Below, piece after piece: positions 514-9,584 of a stretch of DNA of 64,000 bases. The translations under genes were made by a program, and so were the position numbers. Source of the stretch: Desulfovibrio sp. Huiquan2017 (GTDB lineage Bacteria; Desulfobacterota; Desulfovibrionia; Desulfovibrionales; Desulfovibrionaceae); NCBI RefSeq assembly GCF_017351175.1, contig NZ_JAFMPN010000002.1:1-64000 (forward strand), read 5' to 3'. Positions within the stretch are counted from its first letter, which is position 1; every line of letters starts with the position of its first letter. The notes below the pieces were generated by a model. That model searched no databases. It was not told where the DNA came from and was given only the letters and a program-made list of their open reading frames with translations.

Positions 514-1050
514 ATGAATATTTTTGCTAAGATGAAGGGGACTACGCAGAGTCCCCCTAGAGTGGGGAGTTCTGAGGTCGTCTGGTCGTGGGTCGGAGCT
601 TTCCTCGGCATAGCGCTGGTGGGCTCTTTCCAATCAATGGTTGTCGACAGCATCGGGCGCAGCTTGCTTATTGGCTCTTTCGGAGCCACAGCGGTCCTAG
701 TCTATGGAGCGATACGCAGCCCTTTGGCGCAGCCGAGGAACGTTTTGGGCGGCCATGTCCTTTCGGCATTGGTTGGAGTGTTATCCTATCAAGTCGCCGG
801 GGACATAACCTGGCTGGCGGCGGCACTGGCTGTTGCGACCGCCATAGCGCTGATGCACGTAACGAAGACTCTCCACCCTCCGGGAGGGGCTACGGCGCTC
901 ATCGCCGTAATCGGCGGAGATTCCATCCACAACTTGGGATATTTCTACGCATTGATCCCAGTAGGACTCGGAGCGGTCCTGCTCCTCGCAGTGGCCCTTA
1001 TAGTCAACAACATGGCAGGTCAGCGGCGTTATCCCGAGTTCTGGTTGTAA
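514..1050 (+). CDS. HPP family integral membrane protein
   Basis: 178 residues with about four hydrophobic segments (roughly 24-45, 48-66, 78-112 and 142-165). It carries the family-defining HPPGGATAL motif near residue 120 and the SPLAQPRN motif between helices one and two. HPP proteins are inner-membrane proteins; plant and cyanobacterial members have been linked to nitrite transport, but the substrate of bacterial members is generally unknown. It begins 3 bp after the CBS-domain gene and lies 56 bp before the flavodiiron protein, so the three probably form one operon. No strong ribosome-binding site is visible, which fits translational coupling to the upstream stop codon. Confidence 0.88.
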   Translation: MNIFAKMKGTTQSPPRVGSSEVVWSWVGAFLGIALVGSFQSMVVDSIGRSLLIGSFGATAVLVYGAIRSPLAQPRNVLGGHVLSALVGVLSYQVAGDITWLAAALAVATAIALMHVTKTLHPPGGATALIAVIGGDSIHNLGYFYALIPVGLGAVLLLAVALIVNNMAGQRRYPEFWL

Positions 1051-1106: not shown

Positions 1107-2294
1107 ATGAGCTTCAAACTGACGGAAAGCGTAACCTGGGTCGGTAAGATTGATTGGGAATTGCAAAAATTCCATGGAGAGGAATACTCGACCTTCAAAG
1201 GCTCCTCTTACAATTCCTACCTCGTCCGGGACGAAAAAACAGTTCTGATAGACACCGTCTACGGCCCCTTCGGAAAAGAATTCGTCGCCGAGCTGGAAAG
1301 AGAAATCGATTTGAACCAGATCGACTGCATCGTCATGAACCACTGCGAGGTTGACCATAGCGGTGGGCTTCCGGAGCTTATGCGCCGCATACCGGACGTG
1401 CCGATTTATTGTTCAGCCCAAGCGGTGAAAATACTGAAAGGCTACTACCACTCCGACTGGAACTTCCAGGTCGTCAAAACTGGAGACACTCTCTCCCTGG
1501 GAGAGAAAACCCTTTCCTTCATTTCGGCCCCGATGCTCCATTGGCCGGACTCCATGTTCACTTATATGGACAAGGAAAACGCTTTGTTCAGCAACGATGC
1601 CTTTGGTCACCATCTCGCATCCGACCTGATGTACAACGATCTGGTCGACCAGGAAGAGCTCATGAAGGAATGCATAAAATATTATGCAAACATCCTTACG
1701 CCGTTCAGCAAGTTGGTGGCAAAGAAAATCAACGAAGTGGTGGCGCTGGGAGTCCCCGTTGACTTCATCTTTCCCAGCCATGGCATCATGTGGCGCGACA
1801 ACCCTCTTCAGATCGTACAGAAATACCTGGAGTGGGCGGATGACTATCAGGAAGATCAAGTGACCATCATCTATGACACGATGTGGAACAGCACGAGGGA
1901 CATGGCCGAAGCGATCGCCTCGGGAATCCGGCAGGCGAACGAGCGGGTTGTCATCAAGATTCTCCATGTTGGCCAGCGCGACAAAAATGATATTATTACG
2001 GAAATCTTTCGTTCTAAAATGGTGGTTGCCGGTTGTTCAACCATCAACAAGGGTATTCTTTCCCATATGGCTGGAATGCTCGAAATGATCCACGGTCTTT
2101 CCTTCAAAAACAAGAAGGGGGCGGCCTTCGGATCCTACGGCTGGTCGGGAGAAAGCGTCAAAATGATTTCCGACAGCCTTGAAAAGGCAGGAATCGAGTT
2201 GGTTGCGGACGGGTTAAAAACGTTGTGGAAACCTGACGAAGCAGGTCGTCAAGAATGCGAAGCATACGGCCGGCAGCTCGCAGAGAATCTATAG
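1107..2294 (+). CDS. roo: Flavodiiron protein (rubredoxin:oxygen oxidoreductase type)
   Basis: 395 residues, close to the 402 of Desulfovibrio gigas ROO. The N-terminal metallo-beta-lactamase-like domain carries the diiron ligands H79-x-E81-x-D83-H84, H145, D164 and H225. A flavodoxin domain starts near residue 250 and has an FMN phosphate loop around YDTMWNSTRDMA. Such proteins reduce O2 to water, or NO to N2O, in the cytoplasm with electrons from rubredoxin. The start is the ATG at 1107 behind AAAAAGGGG; the open frame extends further upstream but overlaps the HPP gene. It sits with CBS and HPP genes in the A+T-rich putative Tn7 cargo, so it may be an acquired oxygen or NO defence gene. No rubredoxin gene is in view. 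Confidence 0.95.
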   Translation: MSFKLTESVTWVGKIDWELQKFHGEEYSTFKGSSYNSYLVRDEKTVLIDTVYGPFGKEFVAELEREIDLNQIDCIVMNHCEVDHSGGLPELMRRIPDVPIYCSAQAVKILKGYYHSDWNFQVVKTGDTLSLGEKTLSFISAPMLHWPDSMFTYMDKENALFSNDAFGHHLASDLMYNDLVDQEELMKECIKYYANILTPFSKLVAKKINEVVALGVPVDFIFPSHGIMWRDNPLQIVQKYLEWADDYQEDQVTIIYDTMWNSTRDMAEAIASGIRQANERVVIKILHVGQRDKNDIITEIFRSKMVVAGCSTINKGILSHMAGMLEMIHGLSFKNKKGAAFGSYGWSGESVKMISDSLEKAGIELVADGLKTLWKPDEAGRQECEAYGRQLAENL

Positions 2295-2310: not shown

Positions 2311-2439
2311 ATGAGTGATAACAAGAAGATCGGTGTCTCTTTTCCTGTTGAGGAATCAATCAAGTATGCTGACGACTCTGTCGTAAGCCAGACCCTGCTT
2401 AACAAAGGCAGCATAGGCTCTACTTTTCAGACCGCCTAG
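2311..2439 (+). pseudogene. Truncated cupin-domain protein (N-terminal fragment)
   Basis: A good ribosome-binding site (AAGGAG) precedes the ATG. The first 30 or so residues (MSDNKKIGVSFPVEESIKYA, then DDSVVSQTLLNK) match my recollection of the N-terminus of small single-domain cupins of about 105-110 residues in anaerobes. The frame then turns to unrelated sequence and stops after 42 codons, without the beta-barrel metal-binding histidines. The break lies next to the truncated end of tnsA on the opposite strand, so one deletion may have removed both gene ends. The family assignment rests on the N-terminal pattern alone. Confidence 0.55.
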
Positions 2440-2455
2440 AAATGGGAGGATTACC

Positions 2456-2624
2456 ATGGATTCTCCGGGACTTATGCCCGAAAATACGATGAGAACGCCC
2501 TTGGGAGGGAACAGTCCCTGACTGTCAGCCATGGTTTGTACGCTGAGCCCCGGCCTGAGCCGCGCCCATCTTTGATCCACCGCTGAATTGTCGTCGTCGA
2601 TTGGGAGTACGTTTTCTTTGCCAT
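2456..2624 (-). pseudogene. tnsA: tnsA fragment of a Tn7-like transposon (frameshifted, 3'-truncated)
   Basis: The minus-strand ATG at 2624 opens a frame reading MAKKTYSQSTTTIQRWIKDG then RGSGRGSAYKPWLTVRD, aligning with the Tn7 TnsA N-terminus (ARRIKEGRGQGHGKDYIPWL, then TVQEV). One extra base near 2513 breaks the frame; skipping it, the next frame continues VPSQGRSHRIFGHKSRRIH, matching TnsA VPSSGRSHRIYSHKTGRVH. Homology stops near 2456. The catalytic residues of the TnsA endonuclease (Glu63, Asp114 and Lys132 in Tn7) lie beyond this point and are missing. Position and direction, just inside the right end and reading inward, match Tn7. Confidence 0.85.
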
Positions 2625-2628
2625 GAAG

Positions 2629-2673
2629 AAGCCGCTCCTGGTTGATTCCTTAACAGGATACCAGAAGCGGCTT
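2629..2673. repeat. Stem-loop between the Tn7-like right end and tnsA
   Basis: AAGCCGCTCCTGG (2629-2641) pairs with CCAGAAGCGGCTT (2661-2673), 13 bp with one mismatch and a 19-nt loop. From memory, Tn7 has a comparable inverted repeat between its right end and the tnsA start codon. It might act as a terminator protecting the transposon operon from glmS readthrough, or as a translational control element. Confidence 0.65.
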
Positions 2674-2732
2674 TAGTTAATAACTTTATTGTCTGGGAAA
2701 CAACTTTATTGTTTGGTTAACAATTTTATTGT
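2673..2732 (-). repeat. Three contiguous 20-bp TnsB-binding-site-like repeats
   Basis: On the minus strand the copies are ACAATAAAATTGTTAACCAA (2732-2713), ACAATAAAGTTGTTTCCCAG (2712-2693) and ACAATAAAGTTATTAACTAA (2692-2673). They share the core ACAATAAA-TT-TT and abut without spacers. The Tn7 right end carries tightly packed TnsB sites with the core GACAATAAAGTC, so these are interpreted as TnsB sites of a related transposase. Confidence 0.8.
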
Positions 2733-2747
2733 GTTCCCACAGGCGAA

Positions 2748-5573
2748 TTATCCCTGCGGCCGGCTGATGCCGACCGTGACGGTCTTGGCCTGGTGGCGGA
2801 TGGTGTCGATGGGCCGGGTCATTTCCTCGATGGCCTTGTTCAAGATGGTCAGGATGTCGTCGAGGCGCGACTCGGTGGCGCAGATGGCCTCGGACTGGTT
2901 GACCAGCCAGAGCATGTAATTGGCCAGGGAGGCGGCCACGCGGGCGGGCAAGGCAGAGTCGGTGGCGCCCGAGGCGATGCGTTCATTGCACAGGTTCAGG
3001 GCAACGAGGAGCTTTTCCCGGTCGAATCGGGCCGTGTCCTCAATCATCTCGCCGATGAGCACGCGGGCCTTGCGGAACGGCTCGGCATGGGAATCGATGG
3101 CCTTGGCCGCAGACACGCCCCACCAGTGGCCGGCCACGGTTTCGAGTACGAAATCCAGGCCGCCGCCCGCTCGGGGCACCTTGATGGTGGCCTCGGCCAC
3201 GCGGTCGAAGCGGTTTTCGTCCTCGGCGCAGAACACGATGGGCGAGCCGTTGTGCGCCCGGAATATGGTGGTTTCCTTGACCGTGTCCGTGACGACCATC
3301 TCAGGCAGATCGGAGGCCATGACCAGGGTCAGGGGTTCGGTGGACAGGTCGATGTGCTTCTTGTCCTCGGTGATGTCGCACGGGATGGATTTGTAGCACA
3401 GTTCCGAGAGCTTGATGCGCACTTCCTGGGCTGCTATGCAGTTGGCCCCGTTGCCGACCAGGGCCCAGTAACGGTGTACCGGAGCGTATTTCCTGGCCAC
3501 CTCGGCGATGGCGTCCTTGTTCTCGAGGACCCTGTCGATCAGTTCGGGCAGTCCCTCCAGCGCCATGATTTCCTTGAGGATCGTTTCCTTGTCCAGGGTG
3601 GAGAGGATGTCCGCCAGCCACAGGGACAGCAGCTTGCCCGCCGCGATCTGCGAGTAGAACGCCTTGGTCGAGGCCACGGCCATCTCCACGTCCCGGCCGT
3701 TGCTGGTGTAGATGTGCGAGTCGGATTTCTGCACCAGTGGGGAGTTGCGCCGGTTGACGATGCAGTTGACCCACGCGCCCCGGTCGCGGCACAGGTCCAC
3801 CACCCGGTTGGTGTCCGTGGTCGTACCCGACTGCGAAACCGGGATCAGGAACACGTCGTCCATGCGTTCGTCGCCCATGAACCCGATCAGTTCCGAGCCG
3901 GTGTAGGACTCGATGGACATGCCCGTGTCCGCCAGGGTGCGCCGGAGCAGCCGGGCCACGGCCATGGCGGCCACGGCGGCCGTGCCCTGGCCCACGCAGA
4001 TGATTCGGCGGATGGGTCGGGTCGCGTCGCAAAATCGTCCCACCAGGGCCGGGCCGCGTCCGAAGCCCTCGGGCAGGAACTCCACTTCACCGTTCTTCTT
4101 GATGTATTTTCCGTGCAAGGTGTTGCGGACCGAGTCCGGCGCCTCGTGGATTTCCTTTTCGATATAGTGGGCGAACTCGCCGCGGAAGATGTCGCGCGAA
4201 AAGATTTCGATCGTTTCCTCGGCCAGTTCCACGGGCTCGCCGTTGTCCAGGTACCGGGCCACGGGCACGGCGTCGGCCGGGTCCGTGTCGCGCAGGACCA
4301 CGGATACGCCGCCCTGCCGGTGCACGGCCACCGGGAATGAGGACCGGGCGCGGGCCGCCATGCCGTAGGCCTCGCTGGCCACCAGCCAGCCGTCAACGGT
4401 CCGGCCGATGTAGAAGGACTGGCCCGATCCCTTTTGGGCCAGGAACTGGGAGTCGAAGTCGTTCAGGTTCTGCATGACCACGGCCAGGGAGCCCTCGCAC
4501 CGTCTGAGCACGTTGCGGAACCGCTCCTCGGCGTCGCCGGTGTCCTCCACGCCAAGGTGGAAGAGCACGGGCAGGATCTTGGCGTCCGTGGAAATGGCGG
4601 GCGGGATGTGCGCGCCCTTGGCCAGGACCGATTCCTCGACCAGGGTGCGGTAGTTGTCCACGTCGCCGTTGAGCACGAACATGGTCTTTTCCAGCCCGGT
4701 GGACATGTCGCCCTCCACCAGCCCGTCCACGGGATGGCAGTTGGGCACGGAAATGATCCCGTTGGACGCCCATCGGGTGTGGGCGATGATGTTCAGGGTT
4801 TCGATTCCCTGGGACATGGTCCACAGCAGGTCGTCATGCTTGATGAATTCGCGCAGGGCCGCGCCGTTGTCCCCGAGCTGGCCCACCAGTTGGGCCACCT
4901 TGTACAGGAAGCGGCAGGCGGTCCGGCCGTCGCCGAGCCTGCGCACCAGCACCTGCCGGGTATCGGCATTGCCGATGGAGCTGCGGTCGGCCAACTCCTG
5001 TTTTTGGCCCCCGGTCAGGTCTTTTTCCGGGTCCACGCCCGCAGGCAGGATGAAGGCCAGGGCCACGCCCGCGGAATCACGGCCGCGTACCTCCAGCTTG
5101 TCGATGGACTGGAGCACCAATTCGGCTCCCCAGGCCAGGAAATGCCGGTCGCGCGCTTCGGGGGCGGCGGCCAATTCCCCGGGCATGAGCGCCAGGGTCC
5201 GGTCCACGTTGACCAGCACCTCCCGCTCGATCTGCCACAGATAGTCGTCGAGGGTTTCGTGCAATCCCTCCAACTCGTCGGTGCGCGGCCCTTGCTCCAG
5301 CTTCACGGCGGCCGCGTTGCGCAGGGCCCGGATGGTGTCGCGAATGCCGGAGAGCGCCCGCAACGTCTCGGGATCGTCCACCAGGCGCATGTGCAGCCCG
5401 AAGGACATGAGGTCGTAGAAGTGTCCGGCCAGTTCGGTCAGGGGGCCGGCGGCGTCAAGGAGGTCCGCGGTGTCGCGGATGGCGGTGAAGTCCGCGTCGA
5501 GGGCGGTGACCCATCCGGTATCCGGCGTGTCCAACCATTTATTATTGCTTAAGAAACTTGCGATACCACACAT
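2748..5573 (-). CDS. glmS: Enlarged GlmS-like glutamine amidotransferase / SIS-domain protein
   Basis: 941 residues against about 610 for ordinary GlmS. The chosen start at 5573 places MCGIASFL at the N-terminus, giving the Cys nucleophile of class-II glutaminase domains; a longer open frame upstream would bury it. A block of about 180 residues of unfamiliar sequence separates this from the typical LEVRGRDSAGVALA and HTRWASNG motifs. Two SIS domains follow (QSGTTTDTNRVVD, STKAFYSQI and ELCYKSIPCD are recognisable), and the C-terminus is IDTIRHQAKTVTVG plus seven residues. GlmS makes glucosamine-6-phosphate from fructose-6-phosphate and glutamine. Whether this long form does so, or uses another sugar, cannot be read here. 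The VTV end is the Tn7 target signature. Confidence 0.8.
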   Translation of the reverse strand: MCGIASFLSNNKWLDTPDTGWVTALDADFTAIRDTADLLDAAGPLTELAGHFYDLMSFGLHMRLVDDPETLRALSGIRDTIRALRNAAAVKLEQGPRTDELEGLHETLDDYLWQIEREVLVNVDRTLALMPGELAAAPEARDRHFLAWGAELVLQSIDKLEVRGRDSAGVALAFILPAGVDPEKDLTGGQKQELADRSSIGNADTRQVLVRRLGDGRTACRFLYKVAQLVGQLGDNGAALREFIKHDDLLWTMSQGIETLNIIAHTRWASNGIISVPNCHPVDGLVEGDMSTGLEKTMFVLNGDVDNYRTLVEESVLAKGAHIPPAISTDAKILPVLFHLGVEDTGDAEERFRNVLRRCEGSLAVVMQNLNDFDSQFLAQKGSGQSFYIGRTVDGWLVASEAYGMAARARSSFPVAVHRQGGVSVVLRDTDPADAVPVARYLDNGEPVELAEETIEIFSRDIFRGEFAHYIEKEIHEAPDSVRNTLHGKYIKKNGEVEFLPEGFGRGPALVGRFCDATRPIRRIICVGQGTAAVAAMAVARLLRRTLADTGMSIESYTGSELIGFMGDERMDDVFLIPVSQSGTTTDTNRVVDLCRDRGAWVNCIVNRRNSPLVQKSDSHIYTSNGRDVEMAVASTKAFYSQIAAGKLLSLWLADILSTLDKETILKEIMALEGLPELIDRVLENKDAIAEVARKYAPVHRYWALVGNGANCIAAQEVRIKLSELCYKSIPCDITEDKKHIDLSTEPLTLVMASDLPEMVVTDTVKETTIFRAHNGSPIVFCAEDENRFDRVAEATIKVPRAGGGLDFVLETVAGHWWGVSAAKAIDSHAEPFRKARVLIGEMIEDTARFDREKLLVALNLCNERIASGATDSALPARVAASLANYMLWLVNQSEAICATESRLDDILTILNKAIEEMTRPIDTIRHQAKTVTVGISRPQG

Positions 5574-5853
5574 GGCGGCAGAATACTCCTGGTGGATGGT
5601 TTCGGAGAGGAGGCGGCGGCGCGGGATGCACGTCGCCGGGCGTCCTGCATGCATTCGTTGAATTACTGCACATGGTGGGCCTTGGCAAGGGCGGGGCCGG
5701 GAGTAAAGGGGGGCGTCGGGAATTCCGATGTCTTGGACCGTTGAGTGTAAAAAGTGATTAAAACAATCTTTTCAACATGTAATGGAAATGATATATTGAC
5801 ATGAAATCCATGTTTACAAAGCGGGGAAAGATGGCTGAACGGACGGGTGCGGC

Positions 5854-7098
5854 ATGATGTTGCGCGGACGCTGGCGGTTGGCAATGCTCCTCGGGATGTG
5901 TCTTGTGTTTTGCCTGCCCGTCAGGGCGGCGGCGGAGCAGGGATACGCCCTCGGCATGTCGGCGGCCTTTACCGGTCCCATCGACGGCCTGGGGGTGGAG
6001 CTCTACCGGGGTTCCATGGCCTATTTCAACTATCTCGACGAGCACGGCGGCATCCACGGCAAGCCGGTTTCCCTTCAGATCCTGGACGACGGCTATCAGC
6101 CCGGTCCGGCCATCGACAATACCATCCGGTTTCTGCGCGGTGACGAGCCCCTGTGCCTGATGAACTACGTGGGCACGCCCACGGTGACCCGCGTCCTGCC
6201 CCTGCTCAAAGGGTATGGCGGGCGGCAGAAGTTGCTTTTCTTCCCCTTTTCCGGGGCGCAACCCCAGCGCGAGCCCCCCTACGACCGGTTCGTCTTCAAC
6301 CTGCGCGCCTCCTACCGCGAGGAGCTGGCCGGGTTGGTGGACCGTTTCCTGGCCCTGAACCGCAAGCGGCTGGCGGTTTTCTACCAGGCCGACGCCTTCG
6401 GGCGCAGCGGCTGGGACGGGGCGCTCCGGGCGCTCAGGTCCCACGGTTTCGAAATGGCGGGAGAGGCCACCTACCGGCGCGGCGCGCGGTTTGACGAGCC
6501 CATGAGCCGACAGGTGGACATCCTCATGCGCGCCAACCCGGACGCGGTCCTGTCCATCGGTTCGTATGCCGCCTGCGCGGCCCTGATCCGGGATGCCCGG
6601 GACAGGGGGCTCGACGTGCCCATCGCCAATGTCTCCTTCGTGGGCAGCGAGAAGCTGCTTTCCCTGTTGCTGGAAGCGGGGCGGGAACGGGGGCGCGATT
6701 ATACGGTTGGCCTGGTCAACTCCCAGGTGGTCCCGAGCTACGAGGACTTGAGCCTGCCCGCAGTGCGCGAATACCGCGAACTCATGGACCGTTACGCTCC
6801 CGACGCGCCCGCCTTGTCCGACCCGGCCTACGTGCCCTTGCGCTACAGCTTCACCAGCTTCGAGGGGTTTCTCAACGCCAAGGCCATGGCCCGCATTCTC
6901 GAAACCTACGACGCGAACCCGGCGCAGGGCCTGCGCGCGGCGGCCGAGTCCATCCATGAGGCGGACATCGGTATCGACGTGCCCCTGCGCTTCGGCCCGG
7001 ACCGGCATCAGGGCCTGAACCGCGTTTATTTCACGACCGTCCGGGACGGCAGATTCGTCCCCATGGACGAAAGGCGGTGGCGGGCATGGCGGCGCTGA
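5854..7098 (+). CDS. Periplasmic binding protein (branched-chain amino acid/amide type)
   Basis: 414 residues with a signal peptide (cleavage probably after VRAAAE, near residue 28), then a Leu/Ile/Val-type periplasmic binding fold. Typical elements are LGMSAAFTGPIDGLGVELYR, GYQPGPAIDNTIRF and VFYQADAFGRSGW. No ABC permease or ATPase follows. Instead the gene overlaps the start of a hybrid histidine kinase, so the protein more likely presents a ligand to that kinase's periplasmic domain than feeds a transporter. The ligand is unknown. The ATG at 5854 is followed at once by another at 5857, with no clear ribosome-binding site, so the start may shift by one codon. Confidence 0.85.
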   Translation: MMLRGRWRLAMLLGMCLVFCLPVRAAAEQGYALGMSAAFTGPIDGLGVELYRGSMAYFNYLDEHGGIHGKPVSLQILDDGYQPGPAIDNTIRFLRGDEPLCLMNYVGTPTVTRVLPLLKGYGGRQKLLFFPFSGAQPQREPPYDRFVFNLRASYREELAGLVDRFLALNRKRLAVFYQADAFGRSGWDGALRALRSHGFEMAGEATYRRGARFDEPMSRQVDILMRANPDAVLSIGSYAACAALIRDARDRGLDVPIANVSFVGSEKLLSLLLEAGRERGRDYTVGLVNSQVVPSYEDLSLPAVREYRELMDRYAPDAPALSDPAYVPLRYSFTSFEGFLNAKAMARILETYDANPAQGLRAAAESIHEADIGIDVPLRFGPDRHQGLNRVYFTTVRDGRFVPMDERRWRAWRR

Positions 7099-9584
7099 GG
7101 AACATGTCCCTGTTCAGGAAGACCGGTTTGGTCGCCTTCTGTCTGTTCGGGGTCATTTCGAGCCTGACCTCGGTTCTGACCGCCTGGACCTTGTACGGGT
7201 TGATGACCCGCGAATACGTCAGCAAGGGCACGGCCATCGCCCATTCCATCGCCGGGGCCAGCCAGGAAATCCTGCTCAACCGCGACGCGGCCACGGTCCA
7301 GTCCATGATCGACCAATATCTGGAGATCGAGGGCGTGGCTTACGTCTTCGTCACGGATGGCGAGGGACTGGTGGTCTCGCACACCTTTGTGCCCGAATTC
7401 CCGCCCATGCTGCGCGAGGTCCGGGGGCAAAAGCACGAAACGACCGTCACTTCGCTGGAAATCGCCCACTACGGGCGGGTCATCGACATCTGCGCGCCGA
7501 TCCTGGGCGGACTGGCGGGACATGTGCACGTGGGCATGGGCAAGGAACTGATCCTGACCTACTTCTGGAAAGTGGTCTTCAGGATGCAGGGGTTGCTTTT
7601 CATTATCTTCTGGGTGTGCGTGGGTATTCTCTACATGATGATGCGCCGCATATCCCGTCCCCTGGGGCAGTTGACGGACTACGCCCGCAAGCTGGCCGCC
7701 CACGACTTCTCCGCGACCATCGACATCCGCACCCGTGACGAACTGGCCGTGCTCGGCCGGGCCATGATGTCCATGGGCCAGGAACTGTCGCTGCTCTTTT
7801 CCGAGATGGAGAGCGAAGTGGACAAGGCCACCGCCGATCTGCGCGACCACATGGCCTATCTGGCGGCCATCATCGACAACCTGGCCGACGGGCTGCTGGT
7901 GGTGGACGTGAACGGGGCCGTGTCGGTCATCAATCCGGCCATGCGCGAGTTTTTCGGTCTGGGCGAGACCCCGTGCAAGGGCAGGTCCCCGGCCCGGCTC
8001 TTTCCCGAGGAGATCACGTCCATGGCGGACCGGATACGGCGCTGCACCGACGAGGTGCTGTCCGCCGAGATTCCCCTGACCCGGGGGCGGACCGGCAAGG
8101 CGGTGGGGTCGTCCATCTTCGCGGGGTCTCCGGCGGGCCAGTGCCTGGGCGGGGTCCTGCTGATCCGCGACATCACCCGCGAAAAGGAGCTGGATCAGCT
8201 CAAGACGGACTTCATCTCCACGGTTTCCCACGAGCTGCGCACACCGATGACCTCGGTGCTCGGCTTCTCCAAGATCATCCGCAAGAAGCTGGACAAGACT
8301 GTTTTCCCCCTGCTGACCGGGGTCGGGGACGTGGAGAAGCCCATCAACCAGGTGCGCGGCAATATGGACATCATCGTGGCCGAGGCCGAGCGGCTGACCG
8401 AATTGATCAACGACGTCCTGGACATCGCCCGCATGGAGGCCGGAGAGATTCATTGGCGGGACGAGAACGTGTCCGTGGTTTCGGTCCTGGAGCGCTCCAA
8501 AGAGGCCACGCGCGGCCTTTGGGAAGCCAAGGGGCTGGCCGTGGAGGTGGAGGCGGCGGACGGCCTGCCCGAGGTGCGCGGCGATCGCGACCGGCTGGTC
8601 CAGGTGGTGGTCAACCTCCTGTCCAACGCCGTCAAGTTCACCAAAGAGGGCCCCATATGCTGTTCGGCGGCGCTTGAGGGCGAGTACGTGCGCGTGTCCG
8701 TTCGAGATAACGGCTCGGGCATCGACCCGGCCGACCTGCGCCTGGTTTTCGACAAGTTCAAGCAGGTGGGCGACACCTTGACCGGCAAGCCCGAAGGGTC
8801 CGGCCTGGGACTGCCCATCTGCCGCCAGATCGTGGAGCGCCACGGCGGGACCATCCAGGCCGAGAGTGAGCCCGGCAAGGGCAGTGTTTTCTCCTTCACG
8901 CTTCCCGTGGTCAGGGAGACCGTCGAAGCGTCCCGGGAAGATGCGGAGCCGTCCCGCTGTCCGGTCTATTCGGGCGACGCCGCCTGGAAGGGCCGGGCCG
9001 CGCCCAAGGTCCTGGTCGTGGACGACGATCCCGCGCTCATAGAATACCTCTCCCAGGTCTTCGAAGAGCAGGGCTTTGCCGTGTGCGAGGCGCGCAACGG
9101 CCCGGAGGCCGTGGCTGCGGCGCGGTCCCTCCTGCCCGATCTGATCACCATGGACATCATGATGCCCGGCATGGACGGCCATCAGGTCATCGACCGGCTG
9201 CGGGCCATGCCCGAGACCCGGGACATCCCCATCCTGGTCATCTCCGCCCTGAGCGGAACCGGGGCCGGGGACATGGCCCTGCTCAAGCCCGTGGACGATG
9301 AGGCCGTGCTCGAGGCCGCCGGGACTTTGTTGCGGGGCAAGGCCTGCGGCGACGCCTGCATCGTGCTCGGCGAAAGCGGGGAGTGCGACCTGAACGGACT
9401 GCGCATCCTGTGCGCGGGCGAGGTCACCTTCGCTACAGCCGAGGAGTTCTGGCCTTTGGTGGAGGGCGGGTTCCGGGGCACGGTGTTCATCGCCGCCGAG
9501 GCCGTGGGCGGCGTGGAGCTGGAACGGCTGACCCGGCTCGGGGGCGTTTCGGTCATTCTCCTGCCGCCCTTTGCCGAGAACTGA
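7086..9584 (+). CDS. Hybrid sensor histidine kinase (HAMP-PAS-HisKA-HATPase-REC)
   Basis: About 832 residues. A first membrane helix lies near residues 15-40, a periplasmic sensor follows, and the second helix is near 165-185. Next come HAMP, a PAS domain ([20 protein letters not shown]), a HisKA H-box ([16 protein letters not shown]), an HATPase domain with [11 protein letters not shown] and [13 protein letters not shown], and a receiver domain with phospho-Asp in [14 protein letters not shown]. The receiver looks shortened: its conserved Lys-Pro (LLKPVDDEA) follows soon after the Thr/Ser position, and about 70 further residues match nothing I know. The ATG at 7086 follows AAGGCGG and overlaps the binding-protein gene; a GTG at 7077 is an alternative. 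The binding protein is the likely input. Confidence 0.9.

Follow-up and report, generated by a model that had tools for sequence, protein, structure and literature searches.

A very probable relic of a Tn7-type right end beside a non-canonical glmS-like gene in Desulfovibrio sp. Huiquan2017, with a hairpin that may have been kept as a glmS terminator

Positions 2456 to 2741 of the DNA analyzed here, a stretch of 64,000 nucleotides from Desulfovibrio sp. Huiquan2017 (the window), are very probably the decayed right end, on the glmS side, of a Tn7-type transposon of the TnsABCD kind. An earlier note on this DNA had proposed a Tn7-like right-end relic at the 3' end of a glmS-like gene, and this is borne out by homology, layout, target distance and intact elements in related genomes. 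The element itself is another member of the Tn7 type, and the new lead is the possible domestication of the hairpin between its end repeats and tnsA.

Layout of the right end and its target

At its right end, Tn7 itself carries packed TnsB repeats behind a TGTGGG terminus, and its tnsA gene reads inward; the relic shows the same layout (Table 1). On the minus strand, the stop codon of the GlmS-like gene (2750-2748) is followed by 6 bp and then by TGTGGG from 2741, after which come three TnsB-type repeats at a spacing of exactly 20 bp (2672-2732), an inverted repeat (2629-2673) and an ATG at 2624, i.e., the order that the earlier note had described. The ATG opens a tnsA that adjoins the right end and reads inward, of which codons 1-56 are left, frameshifted and cut off. 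In the 64-kb window, 2741 is the single place where TGTGGG is followed by three copies of ACAATAAA spaced 20 bp apart. Counted on both strands, ACAATAAA occurs five times in the window, three of them within the right end, compared with an expected mean of 0.26 (200 mononucleotide shuffles). Across the organism's own genome, repeat pairs at 20-bp spacing (up to three mismatches) were found solely at 2672-2732; single TnsB-type sites are also present on contigs C30 and C33 and, weakly, on C11.

Table 1. Features in and around the right-end relic, with the basis of each assignment
Feature	Position	Strand	Basis
CBS-domain protein gene, cut by contig start	1..510	+	profile search
HPP-family membrane protein gene	514..1050	+	Pfam TM_HPP 8.5e-61
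Flavodiiron (A-type flavoprotein) gene	1107..2294	+	Pfam ODP, Flavodoxin_1
Truncated, putatively cupin-type gene	2311..2436	+	paralogue homology ends near 2410, then reads into IS3 end
3' end of IS3-family insertion sequence, body missing	2406..2455	+	94% over 50 bp to G285
Very probable Tn7-type right end with tnsA remnant (whole relic)	2456..2741	-	homology, layout
tnsA codons 38-56, shifted frame	2456..2512	-	15/19 identical to G296 TnsA
tnsA codons 1-37	2514..2624	-	26/37 identical to intact G296 TnsA
GC-rich hairpin then T-rich stretch, proposed terminator/insulator	2629..2673	-	folding, covariation
AGGAG, putative tnsA ribosome-binding site in hairpin 3' arm	2635..2639	-	sequence
Three TnsB-type end repeats, 20-bp spacing	2672..2732	-	repeat layout
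Transposon terminus TGTGGG	2736..2741	-	sequence
Expected 5-bp target duplication adjoining terminus, TCGCC on minus strand	2742..2746		mate copy not found
Non-canonical GlmS-like gene, 940 aa, Tn7 target	2748..5570	-	SIS domain, weak glutamine amidotransferase match
Counterpart of the 36-bp TnsD site of E. coli glmS	2766..2801	-	seven critical letters kept (available part of PMC2918618)

The two tnsA pieces match the TnsA of the related genome G296 in separate frames, so the frameshift claimed for this gene is right. A homology search of the own genome matched TnsA at 2508-2624 (E 5.2e-11, 67% identity). Likewise, 2456 holds as the left boundary, as it is the point where TnsA homology stops and the end of an IS3-family element starts. 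The Pfam TnsA N-terminal model gave no match on the pieces, because it spans residues 74-165 of G296 TnsA, a part that is lost here. A PF08722 profile search of the own genome also returned no match, and since the controls were likewise silent, this is not counted as evidence.

The target gene lies far from canonical GlmS. Against TIGR01135 (cut-off 418 bits), the gene at 2748-5570 scores 183.7 bits, and the cut-off is reached in none of the 36 genomes of the genus compared with 14 of 14 control genomes. The GlmS-like gene is nevertheless probably the cell's GlmS. The right end points towards glmS and stands at a fixed distance from the TnsD site, its terminus at 2741 falling 45 bp past the start of the Lys codon and 6 bp past the stop codon. 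For Tn7 in E. coli, the insertion point, which we take to be GCGGG, gives 46 bp past the same Lys codon, compared with 45 bp here. We read 40 glmS copies in 34 genomes of the genus; G302 and G308, which gave no DNA match, are outside this set, as are the fragments on G282:C52, G282:C18 and G296:C3. A terminus, decayed in some, together with at least one TnsB-type site is found 43-46 bp past the start of the same Lys codon in 22 of the 40 copies, and G281 and G305 have the terminus only. According to the available part of Mitra et al. (2010; PMC2918618), seven letters of glmS affect TnsD binding and transposition, and these letters, GCAACAG, are the same as in E. coli in all 40 copies. TnsD proteins that home to glmS share a C-terminal architecture, as stated in the available part of Faure et al. 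(2023; PMC10293859).

Five genomes (G284, G286, G309, G313 and G304) carry two copies of the GlmS-like gene each, at different places and with no Tn7 end (L063, L064, L066, L067, L089, L109 and L114-L117). In the part read, the two copies are near-identical in G284, G286, G309 and G313.

Elements at the same site in related genomes

A search with the DNA of the relic across 348 genomes of the order matched 35 of them, including 20 (the own genome among them) of the 36 in the same genus. Six genomes of the genus (G296, G285, G294, G295, G291 and G314) have tnsA, tnsB, tnsC and tnsD as single frames at the same spot. Their elements share the gene, position, repeats and hairpin of the relic but, unlike it, keep tnsABCD. 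In G280 and G290, tnsD is split. Full-length, adjacent TnsA and TnsB accompany 8 of the 40 glmS copies read in the genus. The TnsA, TnsC and TnsD of G296 pass the Pfam cut-offs, while its TnsB gave only a sub-threshold match to the Mu-transposase C-terminal model. Relative to the TnsD of G296, those of G285, G291, G294, G295 and G314 are 53-58% identical, the split ones of G280 and G290 48-60%, and those of G264, G268, G272 and G278 44-48%.

Left ends were looked for within the stretches examined around each locus. A CCCACA left end with a 5-bp duplication matching the right flank was found in G296 (GTTGC), G295 (CTTTT) and G314 (AAAAT), and in G289 CCGTT is repeated where two elements join. 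In G296, G295 and G289, a further right end follows directly after the first, so successive insertions stack at one site.

Elements outside the genus, in g34 (G268, G272, G264) and g37 (G278), have similar end repeats, hairpin, gene order and distance, but they sit at a canonical GlmS ending in PRNLAKSVTVE, unlike the target of the relic. The distance was measured in six of the seven canonical-glmS copies in g34/g37, L032, whose terminus is gone, lying outside this set; the terminus pattern is found at 44 or 46 in five of these six and is unrecognised in L027. G294 holds a further Tn7-type element at L052 (G294:C1 near 3725229), whose tnsA and tnsB are intact but whose TnsC frame is short. The GlmS-like motif is absent alongside it, and it lies roughly 130 bp past what appears by eye to be the 3' portion of a tRNA.

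The hairpin between the repeats and tnsA

The arms of the inverted repeat (2629-2642 and 2660-2673) are 93% complementary, and the hairpin folds with -28.8 kcal/mol (z -5.26; 0 of 200 shuffles as good). The T-rich stretch after it, TTCTTC, is weak. Our own terminator scan accepted the hairpin at 2629-2673, which a simple terminator scan missed; the simple terminator and promoter scan called none, and Rfam gave no matches on 2280-2800. Within the cupin-type gene, the 27 nucleotides at 2336-2362 are 81% complementary to those at 2639-2665 in the hairpin, probably by chance.

The hairpin covaries in the set compared, 29 of 33 copies (22 of the genus and 7 of g34/g37). With arms picked by folding and the four unplaced copies (G281, G289, G301 and G303) omitted, both of which lean towards pairing, the cells changed on both sides number 25 compared with 6.7 +/- 2.0 in shuffles (0 of 500 as high), and 91.6% of cells are paired compared with 84.1% in shuffles and at most 52.2% when slid. 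Changes on both sides affect 7 of the 15 hairpin pairs, which is a less clear measure since 4 of 500 shuffles reach that number.

Hairpins of this kind recur. Two plasmid-borne Tn7-like elements have them before tnsA (-30.5 and -32.2 kcal/mol, 0 of 200 shuffles as good), and so do the own contigs C33 (-29.3, 0 of 200 shuffles as good) and C30 (-21.4, 2 of 200). When terminator-like hairpins at or below -20 kcal/mol are counted, all 8 active copies have one (shuffles 4 of 160), as do 15 of the 18 relics, i.e., copies with no adjacent full TnsB (shuffles 11 of 320), although this count includes G299 and G300, which have neither terminus nor repeats and are classed as relics by the hairpin alone, and becomes 13 of 16 without them. 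The relics that miss this threshold are G281, G301 and G303, of which G303 has the stem and fails the T rule. Among copies with no Tn7 traces, the number is 6 of 14 (shuffles 29 of 280); 8 of these 14 have no terminator-like hairpin at the threshold, so glmS does not always need one there.

As glmS and tnsA are co-directional, we propose that the hairpin stops glmS transcripts and masks the tnsA ribosome-binding site in read-through. In an intact element, a hairpin placed between the repeats and tnsA would insulate tnsA from glmS read-through, and after the death of the transposon the host would retain it as a domesticated glmS terminator. Our confidence in this proposal, from termination and masking through to retention after decay, is tentative and close to even. 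Alternatively, the hairpin could be a feature of the active transposon only, controlling tnsA at its ribosome-binding site, which the relics have lacked the time to lose. This is plausible, though on balance we doubt it. It would account for the 3' arm, where AGGAG just before the ATG is found in all 15 tnsA-bearing copies compared (8 of 8 active copies of the genus and 7 of 7 of g34/g37), and both AGGAG and ATG persist in many relics, the hairpin at 2629-2673 included. However, six relics have lost the motif and the ATG and still keep the stem, with 13-15 standard pairs, and the hairpins of G299 and G300 are strong even though terminus and repeats are gone. In these six relics a T-A pair replaces a T.G or C-G pair, while none of the other 23 copies has T-A there; this contrast holds partly by definition, as loss of the motif is loss of that G, and G287 and G288 are sisters.

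Gay et al. are said to have reported in 1986 that Tn7 inserts into the glmS terminator of E. coli. Transcripts reportedly ended inside Tn7 in the same work, so the idea of a terminating end is not itself new. Retention of the hairpin in relics was not found in print among open-licence papers. A comparable masking exists in IS10 and IS50, where a hairpin hides the ribosome-binding site of the transposase in transcripts entering from outside. The masking proposed for tnsA is the same, but IS10 and IS50 insert at many sites, whereas the incoming transcript here would be that of glmS. To return to the proposed domestication, it is this possible retention as a terminator, and not the element, that we regard as the new lead.

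The left side of the relic

The window starts at base 1 of contig C2, which leaves 2.4 kb to the left of the relic before the contig end. The tnsA remnant is joined there to the end of an IS3-family element. In G285, the match to this sequence comprises the end of an orfB, whose frame we read as IS3-type, and the terminus; a plasmid also gave a match (E 0.01), which overlaps an annotated IS3 family transposase gene. The family assignment thus has both a match to the end of an IS3-type transposase gene and a terminus. The IS end is in turn fused to a gene that is cut after about 33 codons and has an intact paralogue of 109 aa in L006, on the own contig C10. Pfam gave no match on the fragment, which is read as cupin-type from its paralogue.

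The whole CBS-HPP-flavodiiron-cupin operon is intact on C10 (L006 7881-10652, 83% identical to 1-2410). Within L006 3532-10652, this copy is located near frames that read like a hybrid-cluster protein and multihaem cytochromes, and from these frames the region looks like a nitrosative-stress cluster.

The earlier note held everything to the left to be probable transposon cargo, which goes further than the data. Only 2.4 kb are present, joined through the IS3 end and a presumed deletion, and the claim also faces the paralogous copy of the operon on C10. The G+C content of 1-2400 (50-54%, compared with 61-67% in 3201-8000) fits foreign DNA but falls short of proving cargo. The operon was absent from the 25 stretches of relatives compared, and its single match is the C10 paralogue, therefore recurrent cargo is unsupported. 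Overall, we regard the left genes as possible Tn7 cargo.

It is also conceivable that the right end is real but has been wrongly connected by the assembly, at a repeated 40 bp, to the IS3 end and the cupin operon, so that in reality tnsA is followed by a complete IS3 copy or by the remaining transposon. Positions 2416-2455 are identical to the last 40 bases of the own contig C4, which ends exactly with them, and assemblers can misjoin at such places. Moreover, the start of C2 shares about 40 bp with C10, so this assembly breaks at short repeats. Yet the IS3 match extends beyond the shared 40 bp, to 2406, and the IS end occurs at just two places in the genome (up to three mismatches), so a multicopy IS able to cause such a collapse is not visible. 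We consider a misjoin unlikely, but leave room for an assembly error at the tnsA-IS3-cupin junction; the right end itself would be unaffected.

Missing TnsB and other remnants in the genome

A homology search of the own genome for TnsB gave no match; therefore, this is a remnant and not a working element. TnsA matches number two, the relic at 2508-2624 and a scrap on C33. The mate left end that the earlier note had anticipated, with a duplication matching 2742-2746, was searched for in the own genome and did not appear. An L-type end on C30 was rejected as the mate because its flank is CGTAC where TCGCC is expected, and a similar stretch on C33 was rejected as it has no CCCACA terminus.

Both C30 (L125 1-660) and C33 (L048 1-530) open with Tn7 left-end sequence, 88% identical over 147 bp. 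On C30, CCCACA is followed by a fragment reading like a dehydratase gene and then by a decayed tnsA-like start, while the left-end sequence of C33 continues into a decayed tnsA start. The TnsB-type sites on each of these contigs precede such a decayed start and a hairpin (for C30 by DNA similarity to C33 and by eye), therefore the genome keeps remnants of several elements.

A solitary right end with three intact TnsB repeats could in principle still be moved by a related Tn7-type transposase from another element. The terminus and the three repeats look intact, relatives hold working-looking tnsABCD, and the L-type end on C30 has an intact CCCACA terminus. Against this stand the lack of any TnsB match in the own genome, which has merely two TnsA scraps with the relic included, and the failure to find a linked left end, the C30 flank being mismatched; we regard such mobility as quite improbable. 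Chance resemblance of AT-rich repeats and a short open frame to a Tn7 end is already refuted by the homologous intact elements at the same site, and the repeat statistics and the TnsA match are also contrary to it, which leaves it next to no probability.

We are thus left with a decayed right end, for which the following history may be proposed. TnsD would have recognised the end of the non-canonical glmS that codes for AKTVTV, and insertion would have followed 45 bp beyond the first base of the Lys codon, which is 6 bp downstream of the stop codon. A frameshift in tnsA would have come next, together with the entry of an IS3-family element into tnsA, and a deletion between the IS and the cupin-type gene would then have removed the IS body and the remaining tns genes.

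Short and long forms of GlmS

Homologues of the GlmS-like protein fall into forms with short and long tails. Of 7996 scored homologues, the best 120 were compared (rows P0001-P0120), and among these best 120 the closest named homologues are from Pseudodesulfovibrio and Salidesulfovibrio; Pseudodesulfovibrio also holds the nearest named relatives of the own genome. Within the same best 120 of 7996, P0044 and P0081 have no Lys-codon motif, the other 56 of P0001-P0057 end 10-25 residues past the Lys codon (mostly 12), and those of P0058-P0120 with the motif end 163-229 residues past it, P0098 (25) excepted. L134, L137 and most of P0058-P0120 are mostly about 1100-1180 aa long with a C-terminal domain of roughly 190 aa, for which Pfam gave no match in the two proteins scanned. 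In a quick tree of 71 chosen rows, built with SH-aLRT support only and with long-branch warnings, the short-tail group minus P0098 forms one side of a starred branch.

The Tn7 point is two codons downstream of the present stop and would therefore fall within the coding sequence of the long form. At nearly this very position, GlmS may have lost its C-terminal domain (roughly 190 aa), and an ancient Tn7 insertion may have been the cause. A transfer of the lost domain to another place is unsupported, since a search of 348 genomes of the order returned one weak match with two stops. The GlmS-like frame of G294 runs into its Tn7 end, and the tail of P0034, a near-identical sister of G294, resembles a Tn7 end in a different frame from that in G294 (compared as protein only). 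These C-termini show that such rewriting by Tn7 can happen. As keepers of the original cut, however, G294 and P0034 are weakened as candidates, because the tree nests both within the short-tail clade; theirs is a later event, and the ancient cut is not proven.

Comparison with Tn7 and significance

Compared with Tn7 of E. coli, which uses TnsABCD at attTn7, the target here is a non-canonical GlmS and the element is broken. The seven TnsD-critical letters given in the available part of PMC2918618 are shared with the E. coli target. According to the same part, Tn7 inserts about 20 bp past the stop codon in E. coli; the distance here is 6 bp. The findings suggest that TnsD targeting rests on a short box coding for AK[ST]VTV, which survives in GlmS proteins far from the canonical family. 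Accordingly, Tn7 tools directed to glmS may work in bacteria whose GlmS escapes the standard models.

Although gene calling overlooks them, right ends of this kind show where the att site is, delimit one side of a genomic island and record the order in which insertions occurred. Collectively, the genus offers Tn7 right ends at a single locus that range from active through decaying to nearly erased, and this natural series lets one ask what the host keeps once the transposon dies.
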